Assembly: GCA_023475025.1 (NCBI GenBank) | Contig: JAMCWB010000070.1 | Location: 1-34,370, forward strand | DNA: 34,370 bases | Origin: Gammaproteobacteria bacterium | GTDB taxonomy: Bacteria; Pseudomonadota; Gammaproteobacteria; Pseudomonadales; Pseudomonadaceae | Direction: 5' to 3' | In this document: positions 19,726-34,370 of the stretch, piece after piece | Numbering within the stretch: position 1 is the stretch's first letter | Layout of the letters: each line of letters begins with the position of its first letter | Made by a program: the position numbers and the translations under genes | Notes under the pieces: model-generated | Seen by the model: the letters and a program-made list of their open reading frames with translations, nothing else | What the model was told of the DNA's origin: nothing | Database searches by the model: none

Positions 19726-21879
19726 ATGAGTCAGACAGCCAAGGTGCAGAGCCTGCGCAAAGTGGTTAACAGTATTCCCCTGCAGCCAGCCTCGGAAGAC
19801 ATCTGGGATACCAAGTACCGACTCAAGACCAAGGACGGCACCGCCATCGACAAGAGCGTTGACGAATCCTATCAGCGCGTTGCTCGCGCGCTGGCTGATG
19901 TCGAGTCACCGGATGTGCGTGATCACTGGTACGAGCAGTTTCTCTGGGCCTTGCGTCACGGCGCTATCCCGGCTGGCCGCATCACCTCGAATGCGGGTGC
20001 CCTGGAGCACAAGCCGGCTACTTCGACCATCAACTGCACGGTATCCGCCACCGTGGGTGACTCGATGGATGACATTCTGGCCAAGCTGCACGAGGCCGGG
20101 CTGACACTCAAGGCCGGTTGCGGTATCGGGTACGAGTTCTCTACTCTGCGTCCCAAGGGCGCTTATGTATCCGGTGCGGGCGCCTATACCTCCGGCCCAC
20201 TGTCCTTTATGGATATCTACGACAAGATGTGTTTTACCGTGTCTTCGGCCGGTGGCCGTCGCGGCGCGCAAATGGCGACCTTTGATGTCGGTCACCCGGA
20301 CGTCATGGACTTTATCAAGGCCAAGCGTGAAGACGGTCGCCTGCGTCAGTTCAACCTGTCGCTGCTGATCACCCAGGACTTCATGGAAGCAGTGGAAGCA
20401 GATGCCGACTGGCAACTGGCCTTTCCGCTGACGGCTGATGAGGCAGAGGTTGATGGCGTTGATCTGCAGGATCCCGAACAGGTCATCTGGCGTGAATGGC
20501 CCAACAGCGAGCGTTACCTGACCCGTGAAGACGGTCTGGTTGCCTGCCGAGTGTTCCGTACGCTGAAAGCCAAGCGTATCTGGGACATGATCATGACCAG
20601 CACCTACGACTTTGCCGAGCCGGGCTTTATCCTGATTGACCGCGTCAACCAGATGAACAACAACTGGTTCTGTGAAGAAATTCGCGCCACCAACCCCTGT
20701 GGCGAGCAGCCGCTGCCGCCCTATGGCGCCTGCCTGCTGGGCTCTATCAACCTGACGCTGTTTGTGCGTGAACCCTTCACGGACAAGGCCTGGTTTGATT
20801 GGGATGAGTACCGCCGTGTGGTCGACGTCTTTACCCGTATGCTGGACAACGTGGTGGAAATCAATGGCTTGCCGCTGGAGCAGCAGCGCAACGAGATTTT
20901 CCGCAAGCGTCGTCACGGCATGGGCTTCCTCGGTCTGGGTTCAACCATGACCATGCTGTGCATGAAGTACGGTGACGAGAAGTCACTCAAGTTCACAGAA
21001 GAGGTATCCAAGGAAATGGCCCTGCAGGGCTGGCGTACCGGCCTGCAACTGGCTGAAGAGAAGGGTGCCGCGCCCATCATGGATGAGCAGTTCACTGTGA
21101 CTGAAGCCATGCTGGCCAAGCGCCCGGAAATGCGCAAGGACGGTTTCAAGGTTGGCGACGAGGTTTCTGGCAAGCTGCTGTGGGCGAAATACAGCCGCTA
21201 TATGCAACAAGTGGCCGGTGAAGATCAGGCGCTGGTGGATGCCCTGGCCGAAAAGGGCTCGCGCTTCACCCACCACAGCTCGATCGCGCCAACCGGTACT
21301 ATCTCGCTGTCATTGGCCAACAATGCGTCTAACGGCATCGAGCCGAGTTTTGCTCATCACTACTTCCGCAATGTGATCCGCGCCGGCAAGAAGTCGAAGG
21401 AAAAGGTGGATGTATTCAGCTTCGAGCTGCTCGCCTACCGCCACTTCGTTAATCCGGAAGCGCTGCCGAGCATGGATGCGGCGACACGCAATCTGCCGGA
21501 CTACTTTATCGCCGCCGACGATGTCAGCCCGATTCAGCATGTGGACGTTCAGGCTGCGGCGCAGAAGTGGATTGATTCGTCGATCTCCAAGACCGCTAAC
21601 GTGCCGACTGATTATCCCTACGAAGATTTCAAGGATATCTACCGTTACGCCTACCGCCAGGGCCTGAAGGGCTGCACGACTTTCCGTTTCAACCCGGAAG
21701 CTTTCCAGGGCGTTCTGGTCAAGGAAGAGGATCTGACCAATACCACCTACCGCTTCAAACTCGAAGATGGCAGCGTGATCGAGGTCAATGGCAATGAAGA
21801 GATCGAGTACGACGGCGAGATGCACTCGGCAGCCAACCTCTACGACGCGCTGAAAGAAGGTTACTACGGTAAATTCTGA
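19726..21879 (+). CDS. nrdJa: Adenosylcobalamin-dependent ribonucleotide reductase, catalytic part (NrdJa)
   Basis: This class II reductase makes deoxyribonucleotides using an adenosylcobalamin radical, independent of oxygen. The 717-residue protein has the alpha/beta-barrel active-site Cys pattern: Cys104 in TINCTVSAT, the GCGIGYEFSTLRPKGA loop, and the thiyl-radical Cys325 in NPCGEQPLPPYGACLLGSIN. The C-terminal TSCPD/Cys tail usual in fused NrdJ is absent because it is encoded by the next gene, as in the NrdJa/NrdJb arrangement known from Pseudomonas aeruginosa. The ATG at 19726 follows GGGAGAGGG. It is controlled by the promoter and NrdR boxes upstream. Confidence 0.96.
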   Translation: MSQTAKVQSLRKVVNSIPLQPASEDIWDTKYRLKTKDGTAIDKSVDESYQRVARALADVESPDVRDHWYEQFLWALRHGAIPAGRITSNAGALEHKPATSTINCTVSATVGDSMDDILAKLHEAGLTLKAGCGIGYEFSTLRPKGAYVSGAGAYTSGPLSFMDIYDKMCFTVSSAGGRRGAQMATFDVGHPDVMDFIKAKREDGRLRQFNLSLLITQDFMEAVEADADWQLAFPLTADEAEVDGVDLQDPEQVIWREWPNSERYLTREDGLVACRVFRTLKAKRIWDMIMTSTYDFAEPGFILIDRVNQMNNNWFCEEIRATNPCGEQPLPPYGACLLGSINLTLFVREPFTDKAWFDWDEYRRVVDVFTRMLDNVVEINGLPLEQQRNEIFRKRRHGMGFLGLGSTMTMLCMKYGDEKSLKFTEEVSKEMALQGWRTGLQLAEEKGAAPIMDEQFTVTEAMLAKRPEMRKDGFKVGDEVSGKLLWAKYSRYMQQVAGEDQALVDALAEKGSRFTHHSSIAPTGTISLSLANNASNGIEPSFAHHYFRNVIRAGKKSKEKVDVFSFELLAYRHFVNPEALPSMDAATRNLPDYFIAADDVSPIQHVDVQAAAQKWIDSSISKTANVPTDYPYEDFKDIYRYAYRQGLKGCTTFRFNPEAFQGVLVKEEDLTNTTYRFKLEDGSVIEVNGNEEIEYDGEMHSAANLYDALKEGYYGKF

Positions 21880-21892
21880 ACCTGATCAACAA

Positions 21893-21910
21893 GCCCTGCC
21901 AAGGCAGGGC
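21893..21910 (+). other. Hairpin between nrdJa and nrdJb
   Basis: GCCCTGCC (21893-21900) pairs with GGCAGGGC (21903-21910); in RNA a 7-bp stem with a CAAG loop. It fills the middle of the 43-bp gap and ends exactly where the nrdJb ribosome-binding site (GAGG, 21911-21914) begins. It may protect or separate the two messages, or affect initiation at nrdJb. Confidence 0.55.
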
Positions 21911-21922
21911 GAGGACACCAAG

Positions 21923-22624
21923 ATGGCACTGAAAATCAACAGCAAGATTGTCGACTACGCCGTAGTCAAGGCCGATGCGGAGGCCAAAGAGCTGGCCGCT
22001 GCCGCTGCACTTCCCGATATCGAGGAAATGCACGAAAAGCTCAAACGCCCGCAATACCTGGAAGGCAGCACCTACAAGATCAAGACGCCGGTTTCCGAGC
22101 ACGCACTCTATGTCACCATCAATGACGTAGTGCTCAATCACGGCAGCGATCACGAGAGCCGCCGCCCCTTCGAGATTTTCATCAACTCGAAGAATATGGA
22201 GCATTATCAGTGGATTTCAGCTCTGACGCTGATTATCTCCGCGGTATTCCGCAAAGGCGGCGACTGCACCTTCCTGGTGGAAGAGTTGCGTAGCGTGTTC
22301 GATCCCAAGGGTGGCTACATGAAGCGGGGCGGCCGCTGGATGCCCTCACTGGTGGCTGAAATTGGTGATGTGATTGACCAGCACCTGAAGAAGATCGGCA
22401 TGATCGCTGACGAGATGGATGAGCACCAAGCCGCTTATCTGGAACAGAAGCGGGCTGAATTCATGAGTCTGAAGCCCCAGGCACAGGCCGATGCCAGTTG
22501 CGATGATGCGACCGAAAGCTATCCGCCCGGTGCGCAGATGTGTGGCAAGTGTCACACTCAGGCCGCTGTCCAGATGGATGGCTGTATGACCTGTCTTAAC
22601 TGCGGTGAAAGCAAGTGCGGCTAG
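21923..22624 (+). CDS. nrdJb: Ribonucleotide reductase NrdJb, C-terminal TSCPD/redox-cysteine part
   Basis: The 233-residue protein corresponds to the C-terminal portion of fused class II reductases. The TSCPD-type region (~45-150) includes GSTYKIKTPVSEHALYVTIND and RRPFEIFINSKNMEHYQWISALTLIISAVFRKGGD. The C-terminus has a Cys cluster (MCGKCHTQ, then GCMTCLNCGESKCG) that would shuttle electrons to reduce the active-site disulfide in NrdJa. It is required with NrdJa for activity in the known split enzymes. It follows nrdJa by 43 bp and has its own ribosome-binding site (GCGAGG) and a terminator after the stop. Confidence 0.93.
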   Translation: MALKINSKIVDYAVVKADAEAKELAAAAALPDIEEMHEKLKRPQYLEGSTYKIKTPVSEHALYVTINDVVLNHGSDHESRRPFEIFINSKNMEHYQWISALTLIISAVFRKGGDCTFLVEELRSVFDPKGGYMKRGGRWMPSLVAEIGDVIDQHLKKIGMIADEMDEHQAAYLEQKRAEFMSLKPQAQADASCDDATESYPPGAQMCGKCHTQAAVQMDGCMTCLNCGESKCG

Positions 22625-22658
22625 GTCCCTGCGTTGCTTGAAGTACCGCGTATGACCA

Positions 22659-22690
22659 CAAGGGTGCCTAAGGGCACCCTTGCTTGTTCT
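22659..22690 (+). terminator. Rho-independent terminator of nrdJab
   Basis: A perfect 10-bp stem, CAAGGGTGCC (22659-22668) with GGCACCCTTG (22673-22682), has a TAAG tetraloop and is followed by the T-rich CTTGTTCT. It lies 34 bp after the nrdJb stop and just before the rmuC ribosome-binding site. Confidence 0.8.
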
Positions 22691-22707
22691 GGACAAGGAG
22701 AGGATGG

Positions 22708-24246
22708 ATGCCCTGGTTACCTGTGTTGAGCACTGCATTGGCGTTTTTGGCTTCTAGCTGGCTGGCCACGCTGGTCTGGGCCTTGCGCCGTCAGCGGGCA
22801 ATGGCCGAGGATCTCGTTGAAATGCGTCAGGCCGCTCAGCAACATGAGCGCGAGCTGATCGAGATGCGCTCGCAACAGCAGGGCGGCCAGAGCCGGATAA
22901 CTGAACTGCGCGAACAGCACTACCAGGCTGAGCAGCGTCAGCGGCGCGCCGAACAGGAGCGCGAAGAGTGGCGTGCGCGCAGTGAACGCAGCAGCTCCAG
23001 ACTGGAGACACTGGAGCAGCAGTTGCACGAGCTACGCGCACAGCGCCAACACAGCGAGCAGCAGCTGGAACAGTTGCGTGGTGAGCACCAGCAGTTGCTC
23101 AGCGACCACAGCGAACTCAAGTCCAGCCTCAGTCACCGCGAACAACACTTTGCCGAACAGCAGCAACTGCTCAAGGACAGCCGCGAGCAACTGAAGCTGG
23201 AGTTCGAGCAACTGGCCGGGCGAATCTTTGAAGACAAGGGCAAGGCATTTTCGGCCACCAGCCAGCAATCGCTGGATGCCTTGCTCAAGCCTTTTCGCGA
23301 GCAGATCGACCTGTTTCGGCACAAGGTCGAGGATATCCATCACAAGGATACCCAGCAGCAGGCTCGTCTGGCCCAGGAGCTGCACCAACTCAAGGAGCTG
23401 AACAAGCAGATCACCCAGGAGGCCCATGATCTGAGCACGGCGCTGCGTGGGCAGAAAAAGATTCAGGGTAATTGGGGTGAGCTGATCCTGGAAAACGTAC
23501 TGGAGCGCTCCGGCTTGCGCCCGGGCCAGGACTTTCAGCGCGAAGTCAGCTTGCAGACCCGTGATGGGCAACGCCAACGGCCGGATGTGGTGGTCTATTT
23601 ACCCCAAGGCAAGCACCTGATTATAGATGCCAAGGTATCGCTGGCAGCCTATACCCGTTACGTCAACAGCGAGGATGAACAGGAGCGCCAGGTTGCACTG
23701 CTCGAGCACGGGCAGGCGATTGGTGAGCGCATCCGCGAACTGGCGGACAAGAACTACTTTGATCTGCCGGAGCTGAATGCACCGGAAATGGTCTTTATGT
23801 TCATCCCTATCGAATCGGCCTTTGTCGAAGCGCTGAAAGCCGATGAAAGCCTGTTCCAGAAAGCGATTGAACGCAATGTGCTGGTTGCCACGCCAACCAC
23901 CTTGCTGACCAGCCTCAATATTGTGCGCCAGCTCTGGCGCTTTGAGGACCAGAACCGGCATACCGCCGAACTGGCAGAGCGCGCGGGCAGGGTCTACGAC
24001 AAGTTGCGTACCTTCCTCGGCAGCATGGACAGCATTGGCAACAACCTGGAAAAAGCCACCGAAGCCTATCAGAAAGCCTGTGATCAGCTGGTAAGTGGTC
24101 GCGGCAACCTGGTCAAGCAAGTCAGTGATTTCAAAGAGTTAGGTGTTTCAGTTAAAGCTGATTTAAGCGAAGACTGGCGTGACAAGGCGGCGTTGGAACT
24201 TGGCCGTGACCGGCAGCAAGATATCCCCGATCCGGCAAACACCTGA
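22708..24246 (+). CDS. rmuC: DNA recombination protein RmuC
   Basis: RmuC family proteins limit rearrangement at short inverted repeats and have a predicted nuclease fold. The 512-residue protein has an N-terminal membrane anchor (residues ~3-28), a long Gln/Glu/Arg-rich coiled coil (~35-200) and the RmuC domain (~220-470). In that domain a PD-(D/E)xK-like core is visible: Glu258 in GNWGELILENVLE, Asp293 in RPDVVVYL and Asp307-x-Lys309 in LIIDAKVSL. I start at the ATG at 22708 with AAGGAG (22695-22700) 7 nt upstream; an in-frame TTG at 22684 lies inside the upstream terminator. Confidence 0.93.
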   Translation: MPWLPVLSTALAFLASSWLATLVWALRRQRAMAEDLVEMRQAAQQHERELIEMRSQQQGGQSRITELREQHYQAEQRQRRAEQEREEWRARSERSSSRLETLEQQLHELRAQRQHSEQQLEQLRGEHQQLLSDHSELKSSLSHREQHFAEQQQLLKDSREQLKLEFEQLAGRIFEDKGKAFSATSQQSLDALLKPFREQIDLFRHKVEDIHHKDTQQQARLAQELHQLKELNKQITQEAHDLSTALRGQKKIQGNWGELILENVLERSGLRPGQDFQREVSLQTRDGQRQRPDVVVYLPQGKHLIIDAKVSLAAYTRYVNSEDEQERQVALLEHGQAIGERIRELADKNYFDLPELNAPEMVFMFIPIESAFVEALKADESLFQKAIERNVLVATPTTLLTSLNIVRQLWRFEDQNRHTAELAERAGRVYDKLRTFLGSMDSIGNNLEKATEAYQKACDQLVSGRGNLVKQVSDFKELGVSVKADLSEDWRDKAALELGRDRQQDIPDPANT

Positions 24247-24299: not shown

Positions 24300-24316
24300 T
24301 GCGCCATCAAGGTGCA
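24300..24316. promoter_or_regulatory. NtrC-type enhancer site upstream of the urease operon
   Basis: TGCGCC-ATCAA-GGTGCA matches the NtrC dyad TGCACC-N5-GGTGCA in 11 of 12 defined positions. It lies 105 bp upstream of the -12 GC of the sigma-54 promoter, a typical enhancer distance. A second overlapping dyad, GCACA-ACC-TGTGC (24290-24302), adjoins it. Confidence 0.65.
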
Positions 24317-24406
24317 CAATAAGGCGGTCACCCGCCTGATGCCTGTTTTTGGCGCGGGCTGGCAGTGAAAAGGCTCGGCCTGACCCGCTTTTGCGCGCCA
24401 TACAAG

Positions 24407-24423
24407 CTGGCATGTACTTTGCT
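24407..24423 (+). promoter_or_regulatory. Sigma-54 (-24/-12) promoter of ureDABCEFG
   Basis: CTGGCATGTACTTTGCT has the GG (24409-24410) and GC (24421-24422) elements with exactly 10 bp between them. It also has flanking TGGCA and TTGCT as in the RpoN consensus (YTGGCACGrNNNTTGCW; two mismatches). The expected start is near 24433. With the NtrC site upstream this implies induction by nitrogen limitation. Confidence 0.75.
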
Positions 24424-24461
24424 GTTCCCTGTGCAAAGGGATATTCGGGGAACAGCAACAG

Positions 24462-25316
24462 ATGACAGCCGCCTGGCACTTGCAAGCGCACGACAGTGCT
24501 ATCAACTGGCAGGCCGGCCTGAATCTGGGTTTTGCCTGGCGCGAAGGACGCACAGTGCTCGACCGCCTGAGCCATCGTGGCCCCTTGCGCATCCAGCGGC
24601 CGCTGCATCCCGAGGGTGCCGACTGCCCGCACCTGTATATCCTGCATCCTCCTGGTGGCCTGGTCAGTGGCGACAATCTGCGTCTGCAGGTCGACCTGGA
24701 CGCGCACACCAGCACACTGCTGACCACACCTTCATCAGGCAAATTCTACCGCGCCCGCGATAACGGCACGCTGCAGATCCAGCACAACCGTTTCAGCCTG
24801 CAAGGTGGCGCCAGCCTGGAGTATCTGCCCCAGGACACCATTGCCTTCGAGGGCTGCAACGCGCGCATGATTACCCGCCTGGATATAGCCGCCGATGCCC
24901 GCTTCTGTCTCTGGGACCTGCTGTGCCTCGGTCGACCTGCGGCGGGTGAGGGCTTTGCCCATGGCCGGGTGGACCAGCATCTGGATATCTGGCGCGAGGG
25001 CCGCCCGCTGTATATCGAGCGCAGTCGCTTCGAGGGCGGCGATCCACTGCTATCCGCGCGCTGGGGGCTGGGCGGCGCGGGGGTCAGCGGTACCTGGCTG
25101 GCCAGTGTGACCCTGGATCGCAACCAGCTGGATCAGCTGCGCGCACAGTTTGACCAGCCAGAACTGGCTTTTACCCAGCGCCATGGCCTGCTCATAGCAC
25201 GCTATCTGGGCCAGCAGGCAGAGCATGCACGACATACCTTTATCAATCTGTGGCATCACCTGCGACCACTGATCAATGGACGGGCAGCCTGTCTGCCACG
25301 GATCTGGAACACCTGA
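24462..25316 (+). CDS. ureD: Urease accessory protein UreD (UreH)
   Basis: UreD binds apo-urease and, with UreF and UreG, forms the complex that inserts nickel. The 284-residue protein is the usual length. It has the family core: [19 protein letters not shown] (~62-80), then [23 protein letters not shown] and [18 protein letters not shown]. The ATG at 24462 follows a weak purine stretch (AACAGCAACAG). It is the first gene of the operon, directly downstream of the sigma-54 promoter. No abnormality seen. Confidence 0.93.
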
Positions 25317-25329
25317 CAGGAGACACCTG

Positions 25330-25632
25330 ATGGAACTGACCCCGCGTGAAAAGGACAAGTTGCTGTTGTTTACCGCTGCCCTGGTGGCTGAACGGCGGCT
25401 GGCCCGAGGCGTGCTGCTGAATTATCCGGAGTCGGTGGCCTATATCAGTGCAGCCATTATGGAAGGGGCGCGTGACGGGCGCAGTGTGGCGGAGATGATG
25501 AGTTACGGTCGTACGCTGCTGACCCGGGAACAGGTGATGCCCGGCGTACCTGAACTGGTTGCCGAGGTACAGGTGGAAGCGACTTTTCCGGACGGCACCA
25601 AACTGGTGACTGTGCACAACCCGATTCCCTGA
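25330..25632 (+). CDS. ureA: Urease gamma subunit
   Basis: The 100-residue gamma subunit begins [27 protein letters not shown] and ends [14 protein letters not shown], the standard size and ends of UreA. I start at the ATG at 25330, with CAGGAGA 8 nt upstream. Extending to an earlier in-frame ATG would add 18 residues that overlap ureD and match no urease. It forms (UreABC)3 with the next two subunits; spacing from ureD is 13 nt. Confidence 0.96.
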
Positions 25633-25644
25633 AGGAGCTGCCCA

Positions 25645-25950
25645 ATGATTCCCGGAGAAATTGAAACCTTGCCCGGCAACCTGACCCTGAATGCCGGCCG
25701 CGAGACCCTGACGCTGAGTGTGGCCAATAGTGGCGACCGACCGATTCAGGTGGGCTCGCATTATCACTTTGCCGAAACCAACGCTGCCTTGCAGTTCGAT
25801 CGTGATGCCGCCCGAGGTTTTCGGCTCAATATTGCCGCCGGTACTGCCGTGCGTTTCGAGCCGGGGCAAAGCCGCGAGGTGGAACTGGTTGCGTTGGCCG
25901 GTGAACGCAAGGTCTATGGTTTTCGCGGCCTGGTCATGGGCAGCCTGTAA
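25645..25950 (+). CDS. ureB: Urease beta subunit
   Basis: The 101-residue beta subunit begins [20 protein letters not shown] and includes the conserved [17 protein letters not shown] and [19 protein letters not shown]. An AAGGAG ribosome-binding site lies before the ATG. It is encoded separately from ureA, as in most proteobacteria, and is 12 nt downstream of it. Confidence 0.96.
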
Positions 25951-25965
25951 ACAAGGAGCAAGGCA

Positions 25966-27666
25966 ATGGACATCAGCAGACAGGCCTACGCCGAAATGTA
26001 CGGCCCGACCACCGGAGACCGCGTGCGGCTGGGCGATACCGAGCTCTGGGTCAGCGTCGAGCAGGATCTGACCTACTACGGTGAAGAGGTCAAATTCGGT
26101 GGCGGCAAGGTGATTCGTGATGGCATGGGGCAGAGCCAGCGGGTGAGGGCCGAGACGCCCGATACCCTGATCACCAATGCACTGATCCTTGACTGGTGGG
26201 GCATCATCAAGGCGGACGTGGCGATCAAGGATGGCCTGATTGCTGCCATCGGCAAGGCGGGTAATCCGGATATCCAGCCGGATGTGGATATTATTATAGG
26301 CCCCGGTACCGAGGTGATTGCCGGGGAGGGCATGATTCTCACCGCGGGTGGTATCGACGCACATATCCATTTCATCTGCCCGCAGCAGATCGAAGAGGCC
26401 TTGATGTCCGGGGTTACCACCATGCTGGGCGGGGGTACCGGCCCGGCTACCGGCAGCAATGCCACCACCTGTACACCGGGGGCCTGGCATATCGGCAAGA
26501 TGCTGCAGGCGGCGGAATCCTTGCCGATGAACCTGGGTTTTCTCGGCAAGGGTAACGCCAGCCTGCCGCAAGCGCTGGAGGAGCAGATTGCAGCCGGCGC
26601 CATGGGGCTGAAGCTGCATGAGGACTGGGGCACCACGCCGGCGGCAATTGATTGCTGCCTCAGTGTGGCGGATGCCTTTGATGTGCAGGTGGCCATTCAT
26701 ACCGACACGCTGAACGAATCCGGTTTTGTCGAAGATACCCTGGCGGCGATCAAGGGCCGGGTGATCCACACCTACCACACCGAGGGTGCCGGTGGCGGCC
26801 ATGCGCCGGACATCATCAAGGCCTGCGGTGAGCCCAATGTGCTGCCGTCCTCGACCAACCCGACGCGGCCCTACACCATCAATACTGTGGATGAGCACCT
26901 GGATATGCTCATGGTTTGTCACCACCTGGACCCGGCGATTGCCGAGGACGTGGCTTTTGCCGATTCGCGCATCCGCCGTGAGACCATCGCCGCTGAGGAT
27001 ATTCTTCACGATCTGGGCGCCTTCTGCATGATTTCCTCGGACTCCCAGGCCATGGGCCGCGTCGGTGAAGTGATTACCCGGACCTGGCAAACGGCGCACA
27101 AGATGAAGGTGCAGCGTGGCCCCTTGCCAGAGGATGACGACTGGTCGGATAACTTTCGCGCCAAACGCTATATCGCCAAATACACCATCAACCCCGCCAT
27201 CACAATGGGCATGGCTGATCTGGTGGGCTCGGTCGAAGTCGGTAAGTTGGCCGATCTGGTGTTGTGGAAGCCAGCCTTCTTTGCGACCAAGCCCAGCGTG
27301 ATCATCAAGGGCGGTGCGATCGCAGCTGCGCCCATGGGTGACCCCAATGCCTCGATTCCGACACCTCAACCGGTGCATTACCGGCCGATGTTTGGCGCCT
27401 TTGGCAGTGCCATGCACAGTACCTGCATCACCTTTGTCAGCCAGGCAGCGCTGGATGCGAATATTGCCGACCAGCTTGGCCTGCAACGCCGGCTGCAAGC
27501 CGTGCGTAATACCCGCACCATCAGCAAGCGCGATATGAAGCTGAATGACTACCAGCCGGTGATCAGCGTTGATGCCCAGACCTATGTGGTCAAGGCCGAT
27601 GGCGTCGAGTTGCTCTGCGACCCGGCCGAATCACTGCCTTTGGCCCAGCGCTATTATTTATTCTAG
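25966..27666 (+). CDS. ureC: Urease alpha (catalytic) subunit
   Basis: This subunit hydrolyses urea to ammonia and carbamate at a di-nickel site. The 566-residue length is standard. All nickel ligands are in place: His133 and His135 (DAHIH), Lys216 (GLKLHEDWG, carbamylated bridge), His245, His271 and Asp359. The catalytic flap has Cys318/His319 (MVCHHLD). The enzyme should therefore be active once matured by UreDEFG. The gene is preceded by a good AAGGAG-like site and starts 15 nt after ureB. Confidence 0.98.
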
Positions 27667-27675
27667 GAGACGCCA

Positions 27676-28161
27676 ATGATCGAATGCCATCACTGGCTGG
27701 ACGGGCCGGGTCCCGCCGACCACATACTGGAGCTGACCTACGAAAAGCGCACCCGTAGCCGCTTGCGTACGCAGACGCAGGACGGGCGCGATATCGGTCT
27801 CTTTCTGCCGCGTGGACGGGTTCTGATGCAGGGCGACCGCTTGCAGGCCAACGATGGCAGTGTGGTGGTGATCCATGCCGCGCCTGAATCGCTGTCACGG
27901 GTGTTCTGCGATGATGGGCTTTTGCTTGCGCGGGCGGCTTATCACATGGGTAACCGACATGTGCCGCTGGACATTCATGCCGGGCAGTTGCGCTACCTGC
28001 GTGACCACGTACTTGATGGCATGCTGCGCGGTTTCGGGCTGGAAGTCGAAGCCATTGTTGCCCCCTTCAATCCCGAGCCCGGCGCCTATCATAGCCATAA
28101 CCACAGCGTAGCCACACCGGCAGCACCGTTCTTGCGCCTCAGTGGGCATGAGCATGCCTGA
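27676..28161 (+). CDS. ureE: Urease accessory nickel chaperone UreE
   Basis: UreE delivers nickel to the UreDFG complex. The 161-residue protein has an N-terminal peptide-binding-like domain (~1-70) and a C-terminal metal-binding domain with the conserved GNRHVPLDI (His95 at the dimer interface). The C-terminal tail is only mildly His-rich (YHSHNHS and GHEHA), unlike the long poly-His tails of some species. RBS GGAG precedes the ATG. It overlaps ureF slightly. Confidence 0.93.
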   Translation: MIECHHWLDGPGPADHILELTYEKRTRSRLRTQTQDGRDIGLFLPRGRVLMQGDRLQANDGSVVVIHAAPESLSRVFCDDGLLLARAAYHMGNRHVPLDIHAGQLRYLRDHVLDGMLRGFGLEVEAIVAPFNPEPGAYHSHNHSVATPAAPFLRLSGHEHA

Positions 28162-28834
28162 GATTGCCGATGCAGCCTTGCTACGGGTGCTGCAACTGGC
28201 CAGTCCGGCCCTGCCGATTGGTGGTTATGCCTATTCCCAGGGGCTGGAATATGCCATTGAGCAGGACTGGGTGAGAGACCTGGACTCGGCTGCCGCATGG
28301 CTGTCAGCCCTGGCCGAACGCTCGCTGGGTCAGCTGGATATACCCGTCTTGCTACGCCAGTACGCGGCGCTGGAACAGGCCGACGCCAAGAGTTTCAGCC
28401 ACTGGAATGACTGGCTACTGGCAAGCCGCGAAACCGCCGAACTGTATCTGGAAGACAGTCAGCAGGGCGGGGCACTGCTGCGCCTGATGAGGTCATTAGA
28501 GCTGCCGGCGGCGCTGGAGTGGTCGGGCAGCGAGCCGCTGGCGCTGGTCAGTGCCTTTGCCATCGCCGGTCAGTACTGGCGCACCGGCTCAGATGCGCTG
28601 GCCCTGGGTGTGCTTTGGAGCTGGCTGGAAAACCAGGCCGGCGCCGCGACCAAGCTGATTCCCCTGGGGCAAACGGACGCCCAGCGCTTGCTCGATCGTC
28701 TGTTGCCCAGCCTGCCGGCGATTGTCGAACGGGCTGCCGAGCTGGCTGATGAGGCGCTTGGCGCCGGCTTACCCGGGCTGGCATTCGCCAGTGCCCGCCA
28801 TGAACACCAATACACCCGCTTGTTTCGCTCATAA
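28154..28834 (+). CDS. ureF: Urease accessory protein UreF
   Basis: UreF acts with UreD and UreG in nickel insertion and gates UreG GTPase activity. The 226-residue all-helical protein carries [21 protein letters not shown] near the N-terminus and ends with the conserved [11 protein letters not shown]. The start is uncertain: ATG at 28154 (chosen, as AGTGGG at 28141-28146 is 7 nt upstream), ATG at 28148 or GTG at 28142. All three overlap the ureE stop, so translation is coupled. Confidence 0.92.
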
Positions 28835-28845
28835 GGAGTACTCCC

Positions 28846-29493
28846 ATGCAATCCAAACCAGCCCTGCGCGTCGGAATCGGTGGTCCAGTCGGCTCCGGCA
28901 AGACCGCCCTGGTACGCATACTCTGTGAACGCCTGTATCCGCACTATGATCTGGCGGTGATTACCAATGATATCTATACCCGTGAGGATGCGGACTTTCT
29001 GCTGCGCCACGAAGCGCTGCCGGAAGATCGCATTCTGGGCGTGGAAACCGGCGGCTGTCCGCACACAGCCATCCGTGAAGATGCCTCGATGAACCTGGCG
29101 GCGATTGCCGAACTGCAGGCGCGTTTTCCAGCCATCGAGCTGGTGTTTGTCGAAAGTGGCGGTGACAACCTGGCAGCTACCTTCAGCCCGGAGCTGTCCG
29201 ACCTGACCCTGTATGTAATCGACGTATCGGCCGGTGACAAGATTCCGCGTAAGGGTGGCCCGGGCATTACCCGTTCCGATCTATTGATCATCAACAAGAC
29301 CGACCTGGCGCCTTTAGTGGGCGCTGATCTGGATGTGATGGATCGTGATGCGGCCAGGATGCGCGGCGAGCGACCCTTTGTATTTTCCAATCTGAAAAGC
29401 GGCAAGGGTGTCGAGGACATCATTGCCTTTATCGTTCGTCAGGGCATGCTCAGAGCGCTGCCGGAGAACATCCAACAGGCACAAGGAGTCTGA
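28846..29493 (+). CDS. ureG: Urease accessory GTPase UreG
   Basis: UreG is a SIMIBI-class GTPase powering nickel insertion. The 215-residue protein has the P-loop GGPVGSGKT (12-20), the metal-binding Cys71-Pro-His73 ([15 protein letters not shown]), [15 protein letters not shown] (switch region) and the guanine-specificity [19 protein letters not shown] (28833-28838) precedes the ATG by 7 nt. It sits 11 nt after ureF. Confidence 0.97.
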
Positions 29494-29495
29494 AT

Positions 29496-30080
29496 ATGCA
29501 TAACACAGGGCGTTTACTTTTGCTGGCTGGTGCACTGGCCGTACCTGGCCTGGCTCATGCCCATCCGGGCCACGAGACCCTGCATGGATTGTTCAGTGGC
29601 CTGGGGCATCCCTTGTTCGGTTTCGACCACTTGCTGGCCATGCTGGCCGTAGGGTTGTGGGGCGCGCAGTTGGGTGGTCGGGCCCGCTGGCTACTGCCCG
29701 TGCTCTTCGTCGGTGTCATGCTCAGCGGTGGTGCCCTGGGTATGTTGGGTGTATCGATACCCGTGGTAGAACCGGGCATCATTGCCTCGGTTGTGGCGCT
29801 GGGCTTATTTCTGCTCTGGGCGCGTCAGGTGCCCTTGTTGGCCAGTGGCGCGCTGGTGTCGCTCTTTGCGCTGTTTCATGGCGTCGCCCATGGCACTGAA
29901 ATGCCCTTGCAGGTGAGTGCGCTGACCTATGCGCTGGGCTTTGCCCTTGCTACTGCGGCCCTGCATATCGTGGGTTTGCAGGCAGGGAGCTGGTTGCAGC
30001 GCCAGTCATGGCCCCTGGTAACCCGTACCCTCGGGGCGCTGATCGGTCTGGCTGGTCTGGGCATGCTTATGGCAGGTTGA
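29496..30080 (+). CDS. ureJ: HupE/UreJ family nickel permease
   Basis: The 194-residue protein has a signal-like N-terminus (~1-22, ending GLAHA) and then six to seven hydrophobic helices. The HupE/UreJ signature HPGHETLHG...GHPLFGFDHLLAMLAVG supplies the His/Asp nickel-binding cluster near residues 23-52, and FHGVAHGTEMP is the second conserved His motif. It likely imports nickel for the urease encoded upstream. AAGGAG precedes the ATG, 3 nt after the ureG stop, so it belongs to the operon. The hupE name would be equally valid. Confidence 0.9.
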   Translation: MHNTGRLLLLAGALAVPGLAHAHPGHETLHGLFSGLGHPLFGFDHLLAMLAVGLWGAQLGGRARWLLPVLFVGVMLSGGALGMLGVSIPVVEPGIIASVVALGLFLLWARQVPLLASGALVSLFALFHGVAHGTEMPLQVSALTYALGFALATAALHIVGLQAGSWLQRQSWPLVTRTLGALIGLAGLGMLMAG

Positions 30081-30111
30081 GGCCGGTATGCGGCGGGGTG
30101 GTTGCCCGCAG

Positions 30112-31251
30112 TCAGTAATGGGCAATCACCCGGTGCACAAAATACATCTTGCGCAAGCTGCCGGGGTTGAGCACAAAGGGGTAGATATCGGCCTGGCCCA
30201 TGGTGCGGGCGAGTACGTTGAGCACGCTGCTGAGCATGACCCAGCGATTGACGAAGGCAAGAAAGCGTTCGGCCTCGGCGTTGTCTGCAGTGCAGTTCAG
30301 GTCGACAGCGGTAAAGGGCGTCAGCGCCAGCTCCAGCCGATCCACCTGAATACCGAAATCCAATGCCACGTTCAGGGTGTCGGTCATGTGCAGGTAGTGT
30401 GCCCAGGTCTCCGCCCAGTCTTCCCAGGGGTGCGAGGCGGCATAATGACTGATGAAGTTATTCTGCCAGTCGAGTGCCGGGCCATACTGGTAATGATTGC
30501 TCAGGGCCTGCTGATAATCGCGACGCTCGTCACCGAAAAGTTCACGACAGGGCGCCAGCCAGTCACTGTCGCGGACCAGCCGGTCCCAGTAATAGTGGCC
30601 CGACTCATGACGGAAATGGCCGAGTAGAGTGCGGTAATGTTCGGCCATGTTTTGCCTTACCTGCTCCCGGTAGGCAGGATCGGCCTCGGCGACATTGATG
30701 GTGATCACCCCATTCATATGACCGGTCATCACCGGCTCATCACCCGGCTGCTGGCGCATCAGCTTGAAGCCCAGGCCGCGCTGCGGATCCTGTTCCCGGT
30801 TCAGTACTGGCAGGCCGAGCATGATAAGCTGGGCCACCAGGCGGCGCTTGGCCTCTTCGGTGGCGCGCCAGAGCTCGGGGCTGCCGGGCTGATCCAGGTT
30901 GGGAATCAGCAGATTCAGCGCGCAGGCCTGGCACAGGTCGCCGTGCTGCGGGTCACTGACCAGCCAGTTGCATTGCAGTGGGCCGTGCAGGTTACTGCAG
31001 CGCTTGACCGGTTGTTGGGCGCTGTCAGGGGGCGGCTGAATCAGCCAGTGTTGATCATCCTGTTGTGGCTGCAGATTGAGCAGCAGGCCCAGTTGGGGGT
31101 GGTACCCCAGCTCACTGCCGCAGGCGAGGCATCGGGTGTTGTGAAAAAAGATCGCCTGACCGCAGCCACAGCGCTGAACATGGCCGTTGGGGTGGTAACG
31201 AAACAGTTGGCCGGGTTCCTGGTTACGCAGCAGCTGGGTAAAGTAGCTCAT
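30112..31251 (-). CDS. Putative zinc-binding metallopeptidase with N-terminal zinc-ribbon
   Basis: The 379-residue protein has an N-terminal zinc-ribbon-like domain (CxC at 28-30, CxxC at 41-44, further cysteines at 85, 94, 107 and 110). Its larger domain carries a zincin motif HESGH (215-219, in GHFRHESGHYYW) and a downstream EDWAETWAHYLH (277-288) that could give the third ligand. It resembles the uncharacterised putative zinc-binding metallopeptidase family. No signal peptide, so cytoplasmic. Its ATG overlaps the alpha-E stop as ATGA. It is the last gene of the sigma-54-driven operon. Substrate unknown; peptide processing is inferred from its neighbours. Confidence 0.85.
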   Translation of the reverse strand: MSYFTQLLRNQEPGQLFRYHPNGHVQRCGCGQAIFFHNTRCLACGSELGYHPQLGLLLNLQPQQDDQHWLIQPPPDSAQQPVKRCSNLHGPLQCNWLVSDPQHGDLCQACALNLLIPNLDQPGSPELWRATEEAKRRLVAQLIMLGLPVLNREQDPQRGLGFKLMRQQPGDEPVMTGHMNGVITINVAEADPAYREQVRQNMAEHYRTLLGHFRHESGHYYWDRLVRDSDWLAPCRELFGDERRDYQQALSNHYQYGPALDWQNNFISHYAASHPWEDWAETWAHYLHMTDTLNVALDFGIQVDRLELALTPFTAVDLNCTADNAEAERFLAFVNRWVMLSSVLNVLARTMGQADIYPFVLNPGSLRKMYFVHRVIAHY

Positions 31252-32216
31252 GCCGATTGCGCCTGAGCTTGCGTACTCCGCTCCCCGCGCTCAAACCAGC
31301 TGCGATTGACGGCGTCATGCACGGCGGTGAAATCGAGCTGGATTTCATCGACAAAGGCATGCAGCAGGTCCGGCTCGGCGGCCAGTTTAATGATGTCAGC
31401 CCCGGCTATACGCTGCCGGCACAGCTCCACGGCTTCCAGCGCTTCGTCATGGTTTTTCAGGTTTTTCAGGGCAAAGGAAAAGCGCTCCAGACTACAGGCT
31501 ACCGCGCGAGGGTAGCGCATATCCTGCAGCAGAAAGCTCAATACATCCGGGCCGCGCACGCGCAGGCGCACATGCTGACGGTACATCTGATAGCCGCTGA
31601 GGGATTTCAGTACGCTCATCCACTGCAGGTTTTCAAAGGGCTTGAGGTCGTCGGCATTACGCGGCAGCAGATTGGCGGAGCGCACATCGATGATGCGGGT
31701 AATCATATCGGCACGCTCCAGCTGGCGCCCCAGCATCAGAAAGGTGCGCGCCTGGGTGTAGCTCAAGGTGCCTTCAATAATGCCGTTGACGGTCTGGCAG
31801 CTGCGAATCACCCGACTGAGAAAGGCGTCGCGCCGGCGCGGGGTAATACCACTTTCGACCTGCTCCTTGACGCTGAGATACAGCTGATTCACTTCTTCCC
31901 AGATCTCCCGTGGTATCACATCACGGGTGGTGCGCAGATTTTCCCGCGCGGCAGCCAGGGAGCTGAGGATGGAACCGCTGTAGCGGGTATCACCACACAT
32001 GAAGTTGAGCACGCTGGCTTCATCACGGTTTTCGTAATGCTCATCAAAGAGTTCGTCATTGCCGGTAATGGCGATGATTTCTTCCCAGCCCAGCTTGGTC
32101 GAGCGGGGCAGGTCGAGCAACAGATTACTGGTCACGCTGAGCAGGCGGGCAGTATCTTCCGCCCGTTCCAGGTAGCGGGCCAGCCAGTAAATGTTTTCAG
32201 CAACACGAGAAAGCAT
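31248..32216 (-). CDS. Alpha-E domain protein
   Basis: The 322-residue, mostly helical protein starts MLSRVAENIYWLARYLERAEDTARLL, the Alpha-E signature, and repeats a similar helix at RTFLMLGRQLERADMITRIIDVRSANLL. The family always travels with circularly permuted ATP-grasp enzymes and transglutaminase-like proteins. Comparative-genomic work on ATP-grasp amidoligases predicted a role in peptide synthesis or peptide tagging; no activity is established. I start at the ATG at 32216 preceded by CAGGGGA. A TTG six codons earlier would overlap the ATP-grasp stop. Second gene of a three-gene operon. Confidence 0.9.
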   Translation of the reverse strand: MLSRVAENIYWLARYLERAEDTARLLSVTSNLLLDLPRSTKLGWEEIIAITGNDELFDEHYENRDEASVLNFMCGDTRYSGSILSSLAAARENLRTTRDVIPREIWEEVNQLYLSVKEQVESGITPRRRDAFLSRVIRSCQTVNGIIEGTLSYTQARTFLMLGRQLERADMITRIIDVRSANLLPRNADDLKPFENLQWMSVLKSLSGYQMYRQHVRLRVRGPDVLSFLLQDMRYPRAVACSLERFSFALKNLKNHDEALEAVELCRQRIAGADIIKLAAEPDLLHAFVDEIQLDFTAVHDAVNRSWFERGERSTQAQAQSA

Positions 32217-32230
32217 AGTGGGTCCCCTGC

Positions 32231-33685
32231 TCAAAGCTCGGAAATGTCGACAATCCAGGTATCTTTACTACCACCACCCTGTGACGAGTTGACCACCAGT
32301 GAGCCCTTGTTCAGGGCGACCCGGGTCAAACCACCGGTGGTAACCCAGGTGGATTCGCCAGACAGGATGAAGGGGCGCAGGTCGACATGCCGGGGCTCCA
32401 TGTGGTTGTCACACAGGGTTGGCGAGGTAGACAGACTCAGGGTGGGTTGCGCCATGTAGTTGCGTGGGTCAGCCTTGATCAGCTCGGCAAATTTCGCCTG
32501 TTCCTGTTTGCTGGAATGCGGGCCGATCAGCATGCCGTAACCGCCAGATTCGTTGGCCGGCTTGACCACCAGTTTGTCCAGGTTGTCGAGTACATACTGG
32601 CGATCATCCTCGAACATGCACAGGTAACTGGGCACATTGGGCAATAGGGGTTCTTCACCGAGGTAATACTTGATGATCTCGGGCACAAAGGCATACACCA
32701 CCTTGTCATCGGCAACGCCGGCACCCGGCGCATTGGCCAGTGCCACCTTGCCGCCGCGCCAGGCCCGCATCAGGCCTTTAACGCCGAGCAGCGAGTCCGG
32801 CTCAAAGACCTCCGGATCAAGGAACATGTCATCGACGCGGCGATAGATCACATCAACCCGCTGCAAGCCGTCGACCAGGCGCATATACACGCAGTCGTCA
32901 TCACCGACAATCAGATCCGACCCCTCCACCAACTGGACACCCATCTGCTGCGCCAGGTAGGAGTGCTCGTAATAGGCCGAGTTGTAGATACCGGGTGTCA
33001 GGATCACGATCACCGGGTCGTCGCCGGGGCGCGGGGAGAGTGACGCCAGGGTGTCATACAGCTGGGAGGTGTAATCATCGACCGGCTGAATCCAGCCGGA
33101 GGCGAACAGGTCCGGCAGCACCCGCTTGGTCACGTTGCGGTTTTCCAGCATGTAGGAGACGCCAGAGGGTACCCGCAGGTTGTCTTCCAGCACATACAGC
33201 GTGCCGTCATTGTCGCGCACCAGATCCGAGCCACAGATATGTGCCCAGACGTTGTGGGCGGTGTTTACCCCGACACACTGCGGACGGAAGTTGACTGACT
33301 GGGCAAGGATTTCCCTGGGGAATACCTTGTCCTTGATGATTTTCTGATCGTGGTAGAGATCATCAATAAACAGATTCAGCGCCTGCACCCGCTGCTTGAG
33401 ACCGGCATCGGTCTTTTGCCATTCGGCCAGGGGGATGATGCGCGGGACGATATCGAAGGGCCAGGCGCGGTCAATCATGCTGCCTTCGGTGTAGACGGTA
33501 AAGGTAATTCCCATCAACTGGATGGCTACCTCGGCGGCCGTCTTGTGCTCGTTCAACTCGCGGGCATCCAGGCTGGCCAGATACTCGCAGAGCATCCGCG
33601 CTTCCGGTCGCGGTTGGCCTGGCGCGGCGATCAGTTCGTCAAAAAAGCGCTTCGGGTCGTAGTCCTTCCAGTTCACTTTGCTCAT
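32231..33685 (-). CDS. Circularly permuted ATP-grasp protein (CP_ATPgrasp family)
   Basis: The 484-residue protein begins MSKVNWKDYDPKRFFDELIA. It shows the family motifs: DIVPRIIPLAEW, NLFIDDLYHDQKIIKD, HICGSDLVRDNDGTLYVLEDNLRVPSGVSYMLENR, a Gly-rich VVKPANESGGYGMLIG (nucleotide-binding loop) and the C-terminal DLRPFILSGE followed by SQGGGSKDTWIVD. ATP-grasp enzymes make carboxylate-amine (amide) bonds; this branch is predicted to act with alpha-E and transglutaminase partners on peptides. The ATG at 33685 has GAGAA upstream and lies about 68 nt after a predicted sigma-54 start. First gene of the operon. Confidence 0.92.
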   Translation of the reverse strand: MSKVNWKDYDPKRFFDELIAAPGQPRPEARMLCEYLASLDARELNEHKTAAEVAIQLMGITFTVYTEGSMIDRAWPFDIVPRIIPLAEWQKTDAGLKQRVQALNLFIDDLYHDQKIIKDKVFPREILAQSVNFRPQCVGVNTAHNVWAHICGSDLVRDNDGTLYVLEDNLRVPSGVSYMLENRNVTKRVLPDLFASGWIQPVDDYTSQLYDTLASLSPRPGDDPVIVILTPGIYNSAYYEHSYLAQQMGVQLVEGSDLIVGDDDCVYMRLVDGLQRVDVIYRRVDDMFLDPEVFEPDSLLGVKGLMRAWRGGKVALANAPGAGVADDKVVYAFVPEIIKYYLGEEPLLPNVPSYLCMFEDDRQYVLDNLDKLVVKPANESGGYGMLIGPHSSKQEQAKFAELIKADPRNYMAQPTLSLSTSPTLCDNHMEPRHVDLRPFILSGESTWVTTGGLTRVALNKGSLVVNSSQGGGSKDTWIVDISEL

Positions 33686-33762
33686 GCAGATTCTCAACTA
33701 CCTGGGTGTCAGTATCAGCGTCGCGACGGACCAGACCGGCCAGGGCGCGTTGATTGAAGTGA

Positions 33763-33779
33763 AGCAATTGCCGTACCAG
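33763..33779 (-). promoter_or_regulatory. Sigma-54 promoter of the ATP-grasp/alpha-E/metallopeptidase operon
   Basis: On the minus strand CTGGTACGGCAATTGCT matches YTGGCACGrNNNTTGCW with a single mismatch (T for C). The -24 GG (33777-33776) and -12 GC (33765-33764) are separated by exactly 10 bp. The expected start is near 33753, about 68 nt before the ATP-grasp ATG. Confidence 0.7.
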
Positions 33780-33838
33780 CTGAATCAGGGTGCTGCTGAA
33801 AGTGCGGCTGCGGCTAAACGGCGTGTCGTCAGAGTCAC

Positions 33839-34020
33839 TTGAGGAAGCACTGATTAAATCCGTTTTTAGTATCTGCGCGACTGCTGCTGACCGGTGCTGG
33901 ACACGCCGTGAACCCATCCCTGGGGGCTCGTAGATGCCATCCCTGGCATCTAACGGTCCAGCACCGGTCAGCAGCAGCCACGCTGGCAACGATTGGTGCA
34001 ATTAATCAGTGCTTCCTTAA
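33839..34020. repeat. MITE-like 182-bp inverted-repeat element
   Basis: The 19-bp ends (33839-33857 and 34002-34020, one mismatch, TTRAGGAAGCACTGATTAA) are inverted. Inside are a perfect 22-bp inverted repeat (33881-33902 with 33956-33977, built on GCTGACCGGTGCTGG) and an inner hairpin AGATGCCA/TGGCATCT (33932-33951). There is no transposase and no obvious target-site duplication. The nested structure suggests a non-autonomous mobile element or a REP/BIME-like unit. Confidence 0.75.
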
Positions 34021-34117
34021 GCCTTAGCCAATTAACAGATGTATGTCCAGTAAGACTCAGTATGTCACCGAGTCGACACAGTTAAGCAACTATTCTTTCG
34101 TCGTCAATGCCGCCGCT

Positions 34118-34147
34118 CTGCGCTCTGGCATGCTATGTTGAGCGCAG
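34118..34147. promoter_or_regulatory. Inverted repeat just upstream of the transglutaminase promoter
   Basis: CTGCGCTC (34118-34125) is repeated in inverse as GAGCGCAG (34140-34147) with a 14-bp spacer, ending 11 bp before the -24 GG. It is a candidate activator or repressor site; the protein is unknown. Confidence 0.4.
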
Positions 34148-34156
34148 TGGCCGGTA

Positions 34157-34173
34157 TTGGCACATGCCTTGCT
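34157..34173 (+). promoter_or_regulatory. Sigma-54 promoter of the transglutaminase-family gene
   Basis: TTGGCACATGCCTTGCT carries a perfect TTGGCAC and TTGCT with GG-N10-GC spacing (GG 34159-34160, GC 34171-34172). Only the two less-conserved bases after CAC differ from consensus. The expected start is near 34183, about 32 nt before the ATG. Confidence 0.72.
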
Positions 34174-34215
34174 GCATCGACCGACTGACCGGTTTCTTTT
34201 CAGGGATTTCATCTC

Positions 34216-34370
34216 ATGACCATTCGTGTAGCACTCAGACACCGTACGCATTACCGCTTTGACAAGCCCGTTTCCGTGTCGCCGCACCTGGTGCGCTTGC
34301 GCCCGGCGCCGCACTGCCGCACCCCGGTCGAGGCCTACAGCCTCAAGGTCAGTGGTGGTGATACCCGCTA
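34216..34370 (+). CDS. Transglutaminase-like protein, N-terminal fragment (runs off the right edge)
   Basis: The first 51 codons are visible. The sequence MTIRVALRHRTHYRFDKPVS followed by VSPHLVRLRPAPHCRTPVEAYSLKVS is the typical bacterial transglutaminase N-terminal domain. Members are large cytoplasmic proteins, often with a DUF2126 C-terminal half, and are found beside alpha-E and ATP-grasp genes as here. The catalytic Cys-His-Asp region lies beyond the window. AGGGA lies 9 nt before the ATG. It is divergent from the ATP-grasp operon with its own sigma-54 promoter. Confidence 0.85.
   Translation, partial: MTIRVALRHRTHYRFDKPVSVSPHLVRLRPAPHCRTPVEAYSLKVSGGDTR

Follow-up and report, generated by a model that had tools for sequence, protein, structure and literature searches.

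A predicted nitrogen-regulated peptide-ligation and cleavage cluster with a zinc peptidase in its ligase operon, neighboring a urease operon in a Pseudomonadaceae genome

Does a urease operon that shares the end of a Pseudomonadaceae contig with ligase, peptidase and transglutaminase genes belong with them to a single nitrogen-regulated system, and what would such a system do? The DNA in question is a stretch of 34,370 nucleotides (hereafter the window; contig C45, positions 1-34370) from a Gammaproteobacteria draft genome (3.10 Mb, 71 contigs, 91.4% complete). In it, a urease operon (24462-30080) is faced by a minus-strand run (33697-30112) encoding a circularly permuted ATP-grasp, an alpha-E protein and a zinc peptidase of the Peptidase_Mx family (Mx), and a transglutaminase-DUF2126 gene starts divergently from that run. 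The original prediction, made from the sequence alone, combined all of these into a nitrogen-starvation programme acting on peptides; its nitrogen-type promoters and its ligation/proteolysis cluster are well supported by the analyses below, but the inclusion of urease is not supported. On balance, we favor a six-gene, divergent peptide-ligation/cleavage system of the DUF2126 form, which would be induced by nitrogen limitation through sigma-54 and, most likely, NtrC.

Matches over the Pfam curated cut-offs (UreD, UreC, UreE, UreF, UreG, UreJ, CP_ATPgrasp, Alpha-E, Peptidase_Mx and Zn_ribbon_DZR_6) bear out the urease genes and the ATP-grasp, alpha-E and zincin peptidase of the cluster that had been proposed; NCBIfam provides no name for any of the six cluster proteins. 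With the listed starts of the open reading frames (ORFs), each of the three minus-strand genes shares 4 nt with the next, later starts being possible for the ATP-grasp and alpha-E. The transglutaminase-like gene is present as proposed, but only its first 50 or so codons lie inside the window; the rest is on contig C59, where it forms an open frame of 1102 codons with Bact_transglu_N, Transglut_core and DUF2126 domains; next come an ATP-grasp/alpha-E fusion and another transglutaminase. C59 and window positions 34236-34361 share an exact repeat, which constitutes the right-hand overlap, and the join is supported because a locus from the nearest relative, L197, aligns through it unbroken (34016-36119 in joined numbering). 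The last nine bases of the window (34362-34370) are unlike the overlapping contig, which suggests that the assembly is mixed or branches at this end. Judged by the peptidase, the closest named relative is the metagenome-assembled genome Pseudomonadaceae bacterium LCM1.Bin50 (91% identity), followed by Halopseudomonas (63% and 61%).

Each of the three transcription units is headed by a sigma-54-type site, in agreement with the three promoters within 10 kb that had been predicted (scores of 19.0 for the urease operon, 19.0 for the ATP-grasp run and 20.5 for the transglutaminase-DUF2126 operon; the motif weights, based on the sigma-54 and NtrC consensus sequences, were set by us). Sigma-54-like matches with up to two mismatches occur 30 times in the window against 29.9 expected, which is chance level; the count alone is therefore no evidence, and position and conservation were used instead. 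Both sites of the divergent pair recur at matching places in all five relatives with the divergent arrangement (L197-L201, of which L199 is Halopseudomonas pachastrellae JCM 12285; scores 17.5-20.5), and the sequence between the two sites has diverged. In the sampled loci, sites scoring ≥19 stand in the 430-bp upstream windows of 26 of 78 ATP-grasp-led operons (25 of 77 genomes, the host included) compared to 4 of 781 other genes, with kinship uncorrected; the control gene starts are crude (first Met), and operons too near a contig end were left out of the promoter counts. This conservation of −24/−12 sites at the heads of operons is one feature expected of an NtrC/sigma-54 regulon and supports the predicted nitrogen-type character of the promoters.

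Genes for RpoN and for NtrC (777.7 bits against a cut-off of 558.6) are present in the host, and NtrC would be the most probable activator of the divergent pair. The NtrC-like palindrome upstream of the urease promoter ties for the best score in the joined stretch of ~34 kb (background for scores ≥14, 0.0057 per kb). Sites scoring ≥12.5 accompany 10 of the 78 ATP-grasp-led operons (530-bp windows) and 32 of the 781 controls (430-bp windows), and are also found in 7 of the 26 ATP-grasp-led operons that carry a sigma-54 site; in four same-family loci (L128, L123, L124 and L104) the NtrC-like site stands 68 bp further upstream of the sigma-54 site. Between the divergent promoters of the host lies a repeat of ~180 bp with 20-nt inverted ends (33838-34021), which looks like an element of the miniature inverted-repeat transposable element (MITE) type: of the 39 matches listed when the query stretch was compared to the genome, 36 are at other places and fall on the repeat, some of them representing two matches per copy, and L197 lacks it at this spot.

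Nitrogen control of this kind of cluster is already known in print. According to the portions of the published reports cited here, four Burkholderia cenocepacia genes with consecutive locus tags depend on NtrC and sigma-54; they are named for DUF404/DUF407, DUF403, a transglutaminase-like domain and a large transglutaminase-like protein, and their log2 changes in an ntrC mutant are −8.2, −9.4, −9.4 and −6.0, respectively (PMC5491218). In wild-type Pseudomonas putida, nitrogen limitation raises PP_2686, PP_2687 and PP_2688 by 12.6-, 11.0- and 14.7-fold (PMC7801951 Table 2), and PP2685, PP2686 and PP2687 were up 11.1-, 6.6- and 7.1-fold in one nitrogen-limited comparison (PMC3325844). On nitrate versus ammonium, the transcripts of PP_2685 (encoding the proteasome-family protein Anbu) and PP_2688 (ATP-grasp) increase by log2 4.4 and 4.0; in reporter fusions the PP_2688 promoter is induced 3.7-fold and the PP_2685 promoter is constitutive (PMC8050072), in keeping with a promoter upstream of the ATP-grasp gene. 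A Bradyrhizobium CP_ATPgrasp_1 gene is listed with an RpoN box at −113 (PMC13207237). Induction by nitrogen limitation would likewise be expected in the host; a search of the open-licence literature returned no description of the exact variant found here.

The six-gene system contains two ATP-grasps, which were compared at eleven residues selected for being common to all 84 stand-alone copies; these residues include what we take to be the ATP-binding lysine, the glycine loop and the E-x-N magnesium motif. The host stand-alone ATP-grasp keeps all eleven and is predicted to be active. The 44 fused ATP-grasps keep between 0 and 3, with E171, N173, D439 and N470 kept in none of them, and Q102, D113, P177, G179, R187, E244, D261, D294, G305, G308, N322 and G325 are kept in every one (the aligned part of one fused sequence, L114, stops before the C-terminal motifs). 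Among the named relatives, fused copies keep none (L198-L201) or four (two Achromobacter) of the eleven, and stand-alone copies keep all of them, or ten in the cut locus L262. The loss of most of the predicted ATP and magnesium residues in 44 of 44 fused copies is new here, and on this pattern of residues the fused protein is read as a degenerate pseudo-ligase partner. Among the genomes examined, the 44 that carry a fused copy all have stand-alone genes as well; another 39 have stand-alone genes and no detected fused copy, and at least two of these 39 (G085 and G097) reach a contig end there. The transglutaminase Cys, His and Asp are present in all 44 large proteins and, of 93 small ones, in 92, 93 and 93, respectively, and DUF2126 residues E399, N401, H446, E565 and R567, which probably have a catalytic role, are invariant in 41 sequences (ATP-grasp matches of <300 aa, transglutaminase matches of <200 aa and DUF2126 matches of <700 aa were left out of the residue counts). 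The alpha-E model, built from 14 sequences, is confident and all-helical (predicted local distance difference test score, pLDDT, 86.7), with no solved-structure match at E ≤ 0.001 in a fold search and none in a PDB sequence search.

These features suggest how the system may work. Nitrogen limitation would lead to both operons being switched on by sigma-54 RNA polymerase, most likely with NtrC. The left operon would then supply an active circularly permuted ATP-grasp ligase, its alpha-E partner and the zinc peptidase, and the right operon a transglutaminase-like/putative amidoligase (DUF2126) protein, the degenerate ATP-grasp/alpha-E fusion and the second transglutaminase-like enzyme. At the expense of ATP, the intact ATP-grasp and DUF2126 could modify a peptide or protein through amide or isopeptide bonds, and the fused pseudo-ligase/alpha-E may act as a scaffold or substrate holder for this active pair. 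The two cysteine enzymes and Mx might then release nitrogen or recycle a tag by cleaving, transferring or trimming the product.

The same enzymes could instead serve an amine or small-molecule route without protein tagging, in which the ligases couple amino acids to amines or small acids, and nitrogen is freed by the cysteine enzymes together with Mx. Ligases of the glutamine synthetase (GS)-like and ATP-grasp types act in polyamine or glutathionylspermidine-like pathways, and the closest solved ATP-grasp structure, 3n6x, is labelled a putative glutathionylspermidine synthase. In the cited tables, urea transport genes share the NtrC and nitrogen-limitation lists with these clusters (PMC5491218, PMC7801951), and polyamine transport genes share the former (PMC5491218). 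However, the gene runs contain, by eye, no amine transporter or oxidase gene (no profile search was made for them), and the combination of transglutaminase-like proteins with a peptidase points to peptides rather than free amines; we retain this route as a tentative alternative to the peptide system.

For Mx, the zinc peptidase of the favored peptide-ligation/cleavage system, literature and database searches turned up no characterized member of its family. The host protein matches the Peptidase_Mx profile over its cut-off and carries the HExxH motif; residues H215, E216, H219, E277 and E281 are invariant in alignments of 20 and 43 sequences, the model has a pLDDT of 90.1, and a fold search gave weak matches to zinc peptidases (the best being 4l7a, E 0.014). 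In a survey sample of 150 genomes of the phylum, Mx was found in 22 and alpha-E in 83, and alpha-E is present in 21 of the 22 Mx genomes compared to 62 of the 128 others (Fisher p 1.5e-5, kinship uncorrected). Mx adjoins the cluster in six of the 22 (the host, G050, G102, G028, G143 and G095) against a roughly estimated expectation of 0.33, so that the co-occurrence with alpha-E and ATP-grasp genes, put forward with the original prediction as a check, reaches beyond close relatives. Among the best 80 of at least 584 confirmed named loci, 13 of them under 15 kb, cluster genes are present in the fetched DNA of 11 and directly adjacent in 10. Several arrangements occur: Mx may lie within the ligase operon, converge on it, diverge from a DUF2126 operon, close an Achromobacter operon or stand beside Anbu. 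The linkage label changes seven times on an Mx tree (76 of 104 loci kept, 28 Pseudomonas loci left out; L262, which a contig end cuts, was treated as unlinked, and L266 was assigned to the unlinked loci by hand), at least four of the changes being forced. On an ATP-grasp tree (56 of 92 loci kept; 36 loci, hand-picked to thin crowded families, left out), all 11 Mx-linked stand-alone copies, with or without Anbu, fall in one subclade of 13 (Shimodaira-Hasegawa-like approximate likelihood ratio test, SH-aLRT, 84), which indicates that part of the association is inherited. The repeated adjacency of Mx to the cluster is new here.

Several results weigh against our reading of the locus. No site scoring ≥19 was found ahead of 52 of the 78 ATP-grasp-led operons, such sites head just 2 of 32 DUF2126-led operons (the host locus and L097), and a motif scan between the divergent host operons gave no clear NtrC site (best 11.5 of 16). 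The P. putida rpoN mutant still induces PP_2686-PP_2688 (14.2-, 16.0- and 19.6-fold), and likewise urtABCD, which argues against sigma-54 dependence in that organism or else reflects a leaky mutant; PP_2685 is hardly altered in the wild type (1.12; both PMC7801951). Anbu operon expression is given as unchanged under several other conditions (PMC5666114), and for the Yersinia Anbu-operon set no peptidase activity and no stable complexes are described, just phosphate release by the ATP-grasp (PMC6376114); across the cited portions of the literature on these genes, no substrate and no activity beyond phosphate release is given. Finally, Mx is not adjacent to the cluster in 16 of the 22 Mx genomes, and for Mx genes that are not part of a ligase operon a site ≥19 is present in 1 of 23 windows only (at −368; 5 of the 23 adjoin a cluster), which counts against a fixed role for Mx in a nitrogen programme.

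Those two last observations equally favor the alternative that Mx is an unrelated general zinc peptidase that is merely nearby, the real system being the ligase, alpha-E and transglutaminase genes, and the same can be said of the 69 of the best 80 named loci that have no ATP-grasp, alpha-E or DUF2126 gene in the fetched DNA. The excess of linked genomes over expectation, the several arrangements, the forced changes on the Mx tree and the overlap of the host Mx gene with alpha-E all argue the other way, and we consider a bystander role for Mx unlikely.

The relationship of Mx to Anbu was considered next to these data. Extension to the right, which had been suggested as a way to reveal Anbu or more ligase genes, did bring further ligase and transglutaminase genes on contig C59 but no Anbu was found. 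The only match to the proteasome family (PF00227) in the host is HslV beside HslU; PF00227 alone misses some Anbu genes (it gives one match each in G028, G035 and G111, which have Anbu and in part HslV-like genes too) and is thus too weak to establish absence, so a dedicated Anbu profile was used. At E ≤ 1 this profile found none in the 91.4% complete host draft, and it registered in 7 of 13 other genomes searched, including the four in which Anbu had already been seen. Of the 22 Mx genomes, 15 also have Anbu (seen in the fetched loci of 12 and, by profile, in 3 of the ten others), just the host and G050 lack it among the six Mx-linked genomes, and Mx and Anbu stand side by side in L262, L263, L273 and G102. 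Mx is therefore not simply an Anbu substitute; a Mx-for-Anbu swap as a rule was rejected on these counts and on the different ATP-grasp clade. A bolder scheme would pair the active ligase with the conserved, alpha-E-fused pseudo-ligase and make the zinc peptidase a cleavage arm beside or instead of Anbu, giving a peptide tagging and untagging system for nitrogen starvation in which one ligase core could work with unrelated protease folds; we regard it as distinctly doubtful.

It remains to place the urease operon, which is complete, as predicted (ureDABCEFGJ, 24462-30080). The idea that it and the cluster are one functional unit, feeding ammonia from the breakdown of both protein and urea, draws on their adjacency and on the sigma-54 type of all three promoters, on the occurrence of alpha-E in 38 of 49 genomes with strong urease matches compared to 45 of 101 others, and on a published correlation, in the cited part of a study of marine metagenomes, between counts of urea-metabolism domains and of the cluster domains (PMC3597751). 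In genome G047, moreover, ureD follows directly on an Anbu-type operon in the same orientation. Comparison with L197 speaks against a single unit: window 20194-24161 aligns to L197 9864-5899 and window 30122-33781 to its neighboring part, 5760-2107, so ~6 kb with the whole urease operon is either extra in the host or lost in L197. The host operon lies between convergent rmuC and Mx, whereas the order in L197 is rmuC, peptidase, alpha-E, ATP-grasp, and no match to the urease region was found in the fetched DNA of L197-L201 (extending only 2 kb beyond Mx in L198). Urease and alpha-E lie within 20 kb of each other in 3 of 38 genomes with both (strong urease match), the host included; the 2 of the other 37 (G047 and G142) compare to 0.66 expected (P 0.14), distances being unavailable for the 22 of 37 in which, read by eye, the two are on different contigs. 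In a UreC tree, the window UreC falls outside a clade of five same-family genomes, and forcing it into that clade is barely rejected (approximately unbiased test, p-AU 0.0445, borderline and post hoc, the group having been chosen after the tree was inspected). The proposed union of urease and cluster is therefore not supported, urease as a general feature of the unit was rejected on the L197 order and the 2 of 37 genomes, and we hold the one-unit view to be highly improbable. Urease looks like a separate, lineage-specific neighbor with its own promoter of the same type, more likely a recent, possibly horizontal, arrival, though loss in L197 or an assembly error may account for the difference.

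Other observations concern urease in its own right. In the G047 locus (L115, C5:159800-179700), ATP-grasp, alpha-E, transglutaminase and Anbu genes share one strand with ureD, ureA/B, ureC and ureG. The Anbu and ureD matches are 8 bp apart, so Anbu cluster and urease are joined much as in an operon, a striking exception. The host has a second, distant ureC (54% identity to the window ureC; G000 contig C38:8056-8418, locus L295), which sits with other urease genes and frames that resemble, by eye, an ATP-binding cassette (ABC) transporter for urea-type solutes. Across the survey, strong urease matches are also commoner in genomes with Peptidase_Mx (19 of 22) than in those without it (30 of 128; Fisher p 2.5e-8, kinship and genome size uncorrected). 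An Rfam match to 5' ureB small RNA (sRNA; 113.6 bits) inside ureC (window 26116-26398, minus strand) probably stems from conservation of the urease coding sequence and not from an RNA gene. Elsewhere in the window, 1962-2166 on the minus strand matches SrbA ('sRNA regulator of biofilms A') in Rfam with 90.1 bits against a cut-off of 69.

Table 1. Positions of the urease operon, the ligase/peptidase cluster and their promoter sites (window coordinates unless a locus is given)
Feature	Position	Strand	Evidence or remark
NtrC-like palindrome TGCGCCATCAAGGTGCA	24300-24316	+	108 bp upstream of urease sigma-54 site; 14.0 of 16
Sigma-54-type promoter TGGCATGTACTTTGCT, upstream of ureD	24408-24423	+	1 mismatch; score 19.0
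ureD	24462-25316	+	PF01774, 7.9e-52
ureA	25330-25632	+	ORF 25276-25632, start chosen at MELTPREK; named by eye
ureB	25645-25950	+	ORF list; named by eye
ureC	25966-27666	+	PF00449 1.8e-55, PF01979 2.2e-83
ureE	27676-28161	+	PF05194, PF02814
ureF	28142-28834	+	PF01730, 9.1e-35
ureG	28846-29493	+	PF02492, 5.4e-39
ureJ (HupE/UreJ)	29496-30080	+	PF04955, 1.9e-59
Peptidase_Mx, zinc ribbon and HExxH zinc peptidase	30112-31251	-	PF15887 2e-103, PF10005 1.3e-19
Stand-alone Alpha-E helical protein	31248-32234	-	PF04168 2.4e-82; AlphaFold mean pLDDT 86.7
Stand-alone circularly permuted ATP-grasp, predicted active	32231-33697	-	PF14403 8.3e-164; PDB 3n6x E 2.1e-158; 11/11 motif residues
Sigma-54-type promoter TGGTACGGCAATTGCT, ATP-grasp/alpha-E/peptidase run	33763-33778	-	1 mismatch; score 19.0
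Sigma-54-type promoter TGGCACATGCCTTGCT, transglutaminase-DUF2126 operon	34158-34173	+	0 mismatches; score 20.5 of 20.5
Transglutaminase-DUF2126 gene start	34216-34370	+	continues on contig C59 as L009:2-3310
ATP-grasp/alpha-E fusion	L009:3366-5966 (contig C59)		after transglutaminase-DUF2126
Second transglutaminase	L009:5963-6886 (contig C59)		after ATP-grasp/alpha-E fusion

How, then, does the locus compare to known systems? Circularly permuted ATP-grasps together with GS-like ligases were reportedly predicted by Iyer et al. in 2009 to form a peptide-tagging system. The Anbu operon of P. putida (PP_2688-PP_2685) contains the same ATP-grasp, alpha-E and transglutaminase families as the host; a third of the sampled ATP-grasp-led operons share the sigma-54-type site ahead of the ATP-grasp, and a response of the Anbu operon to nitrogen limitation is in print in the cited portions of two reports (PMC8050072, PMC7801951). 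The host differs in having no detected Anbu, in the zinc peptidase that ends its ligase operon and in its stand-alone ATP-grasp, which belongs to another clade than those of same-family Anbu operons. Like many sampled loci of the DUF2126 type, it has a transglutaminase-DUF2126 gene, an ATP-grasp/alpha-E fusion and a transglutaminase in that order, and it differs from them by Mx in the ligase operon and by sigma-54-type promoters on both divergent operons. To the Peptidase_Mx family (PF15887 with PF10005) it contributes near full-length Pfam matches with the HExxH and the distal glutamates kept, and a zincin fold has been predicted for DUF2248 (PF10005) in the cited part of PMC3650047. With NtrC/sigma-54 urease operons, urease being among the NtrC targets listed for B. 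cenocepacia (PMC5491218), the host shares gene set and promoter type but differs in the location of the operon between rmuC and Mx, from which it is absent in L197. The ATP-grasp/alpha-E/transglutaminase genes are both widespread (alpha-E in 83 of 150 genomes) and nitrogen-responsive in print, and the present analysis adds two handles, the recurrent association of a zinc peptidase with the cluster and a seemingly inactive ligase copy that is found only in genomes with the stand-alone genes, either of which could lead to the substrate. The locus is thus best read as a nitrogen-starvation ligation/cleavage system of the kind already predicted, in a variant that has the zinc peptidase inside the ligase operon.

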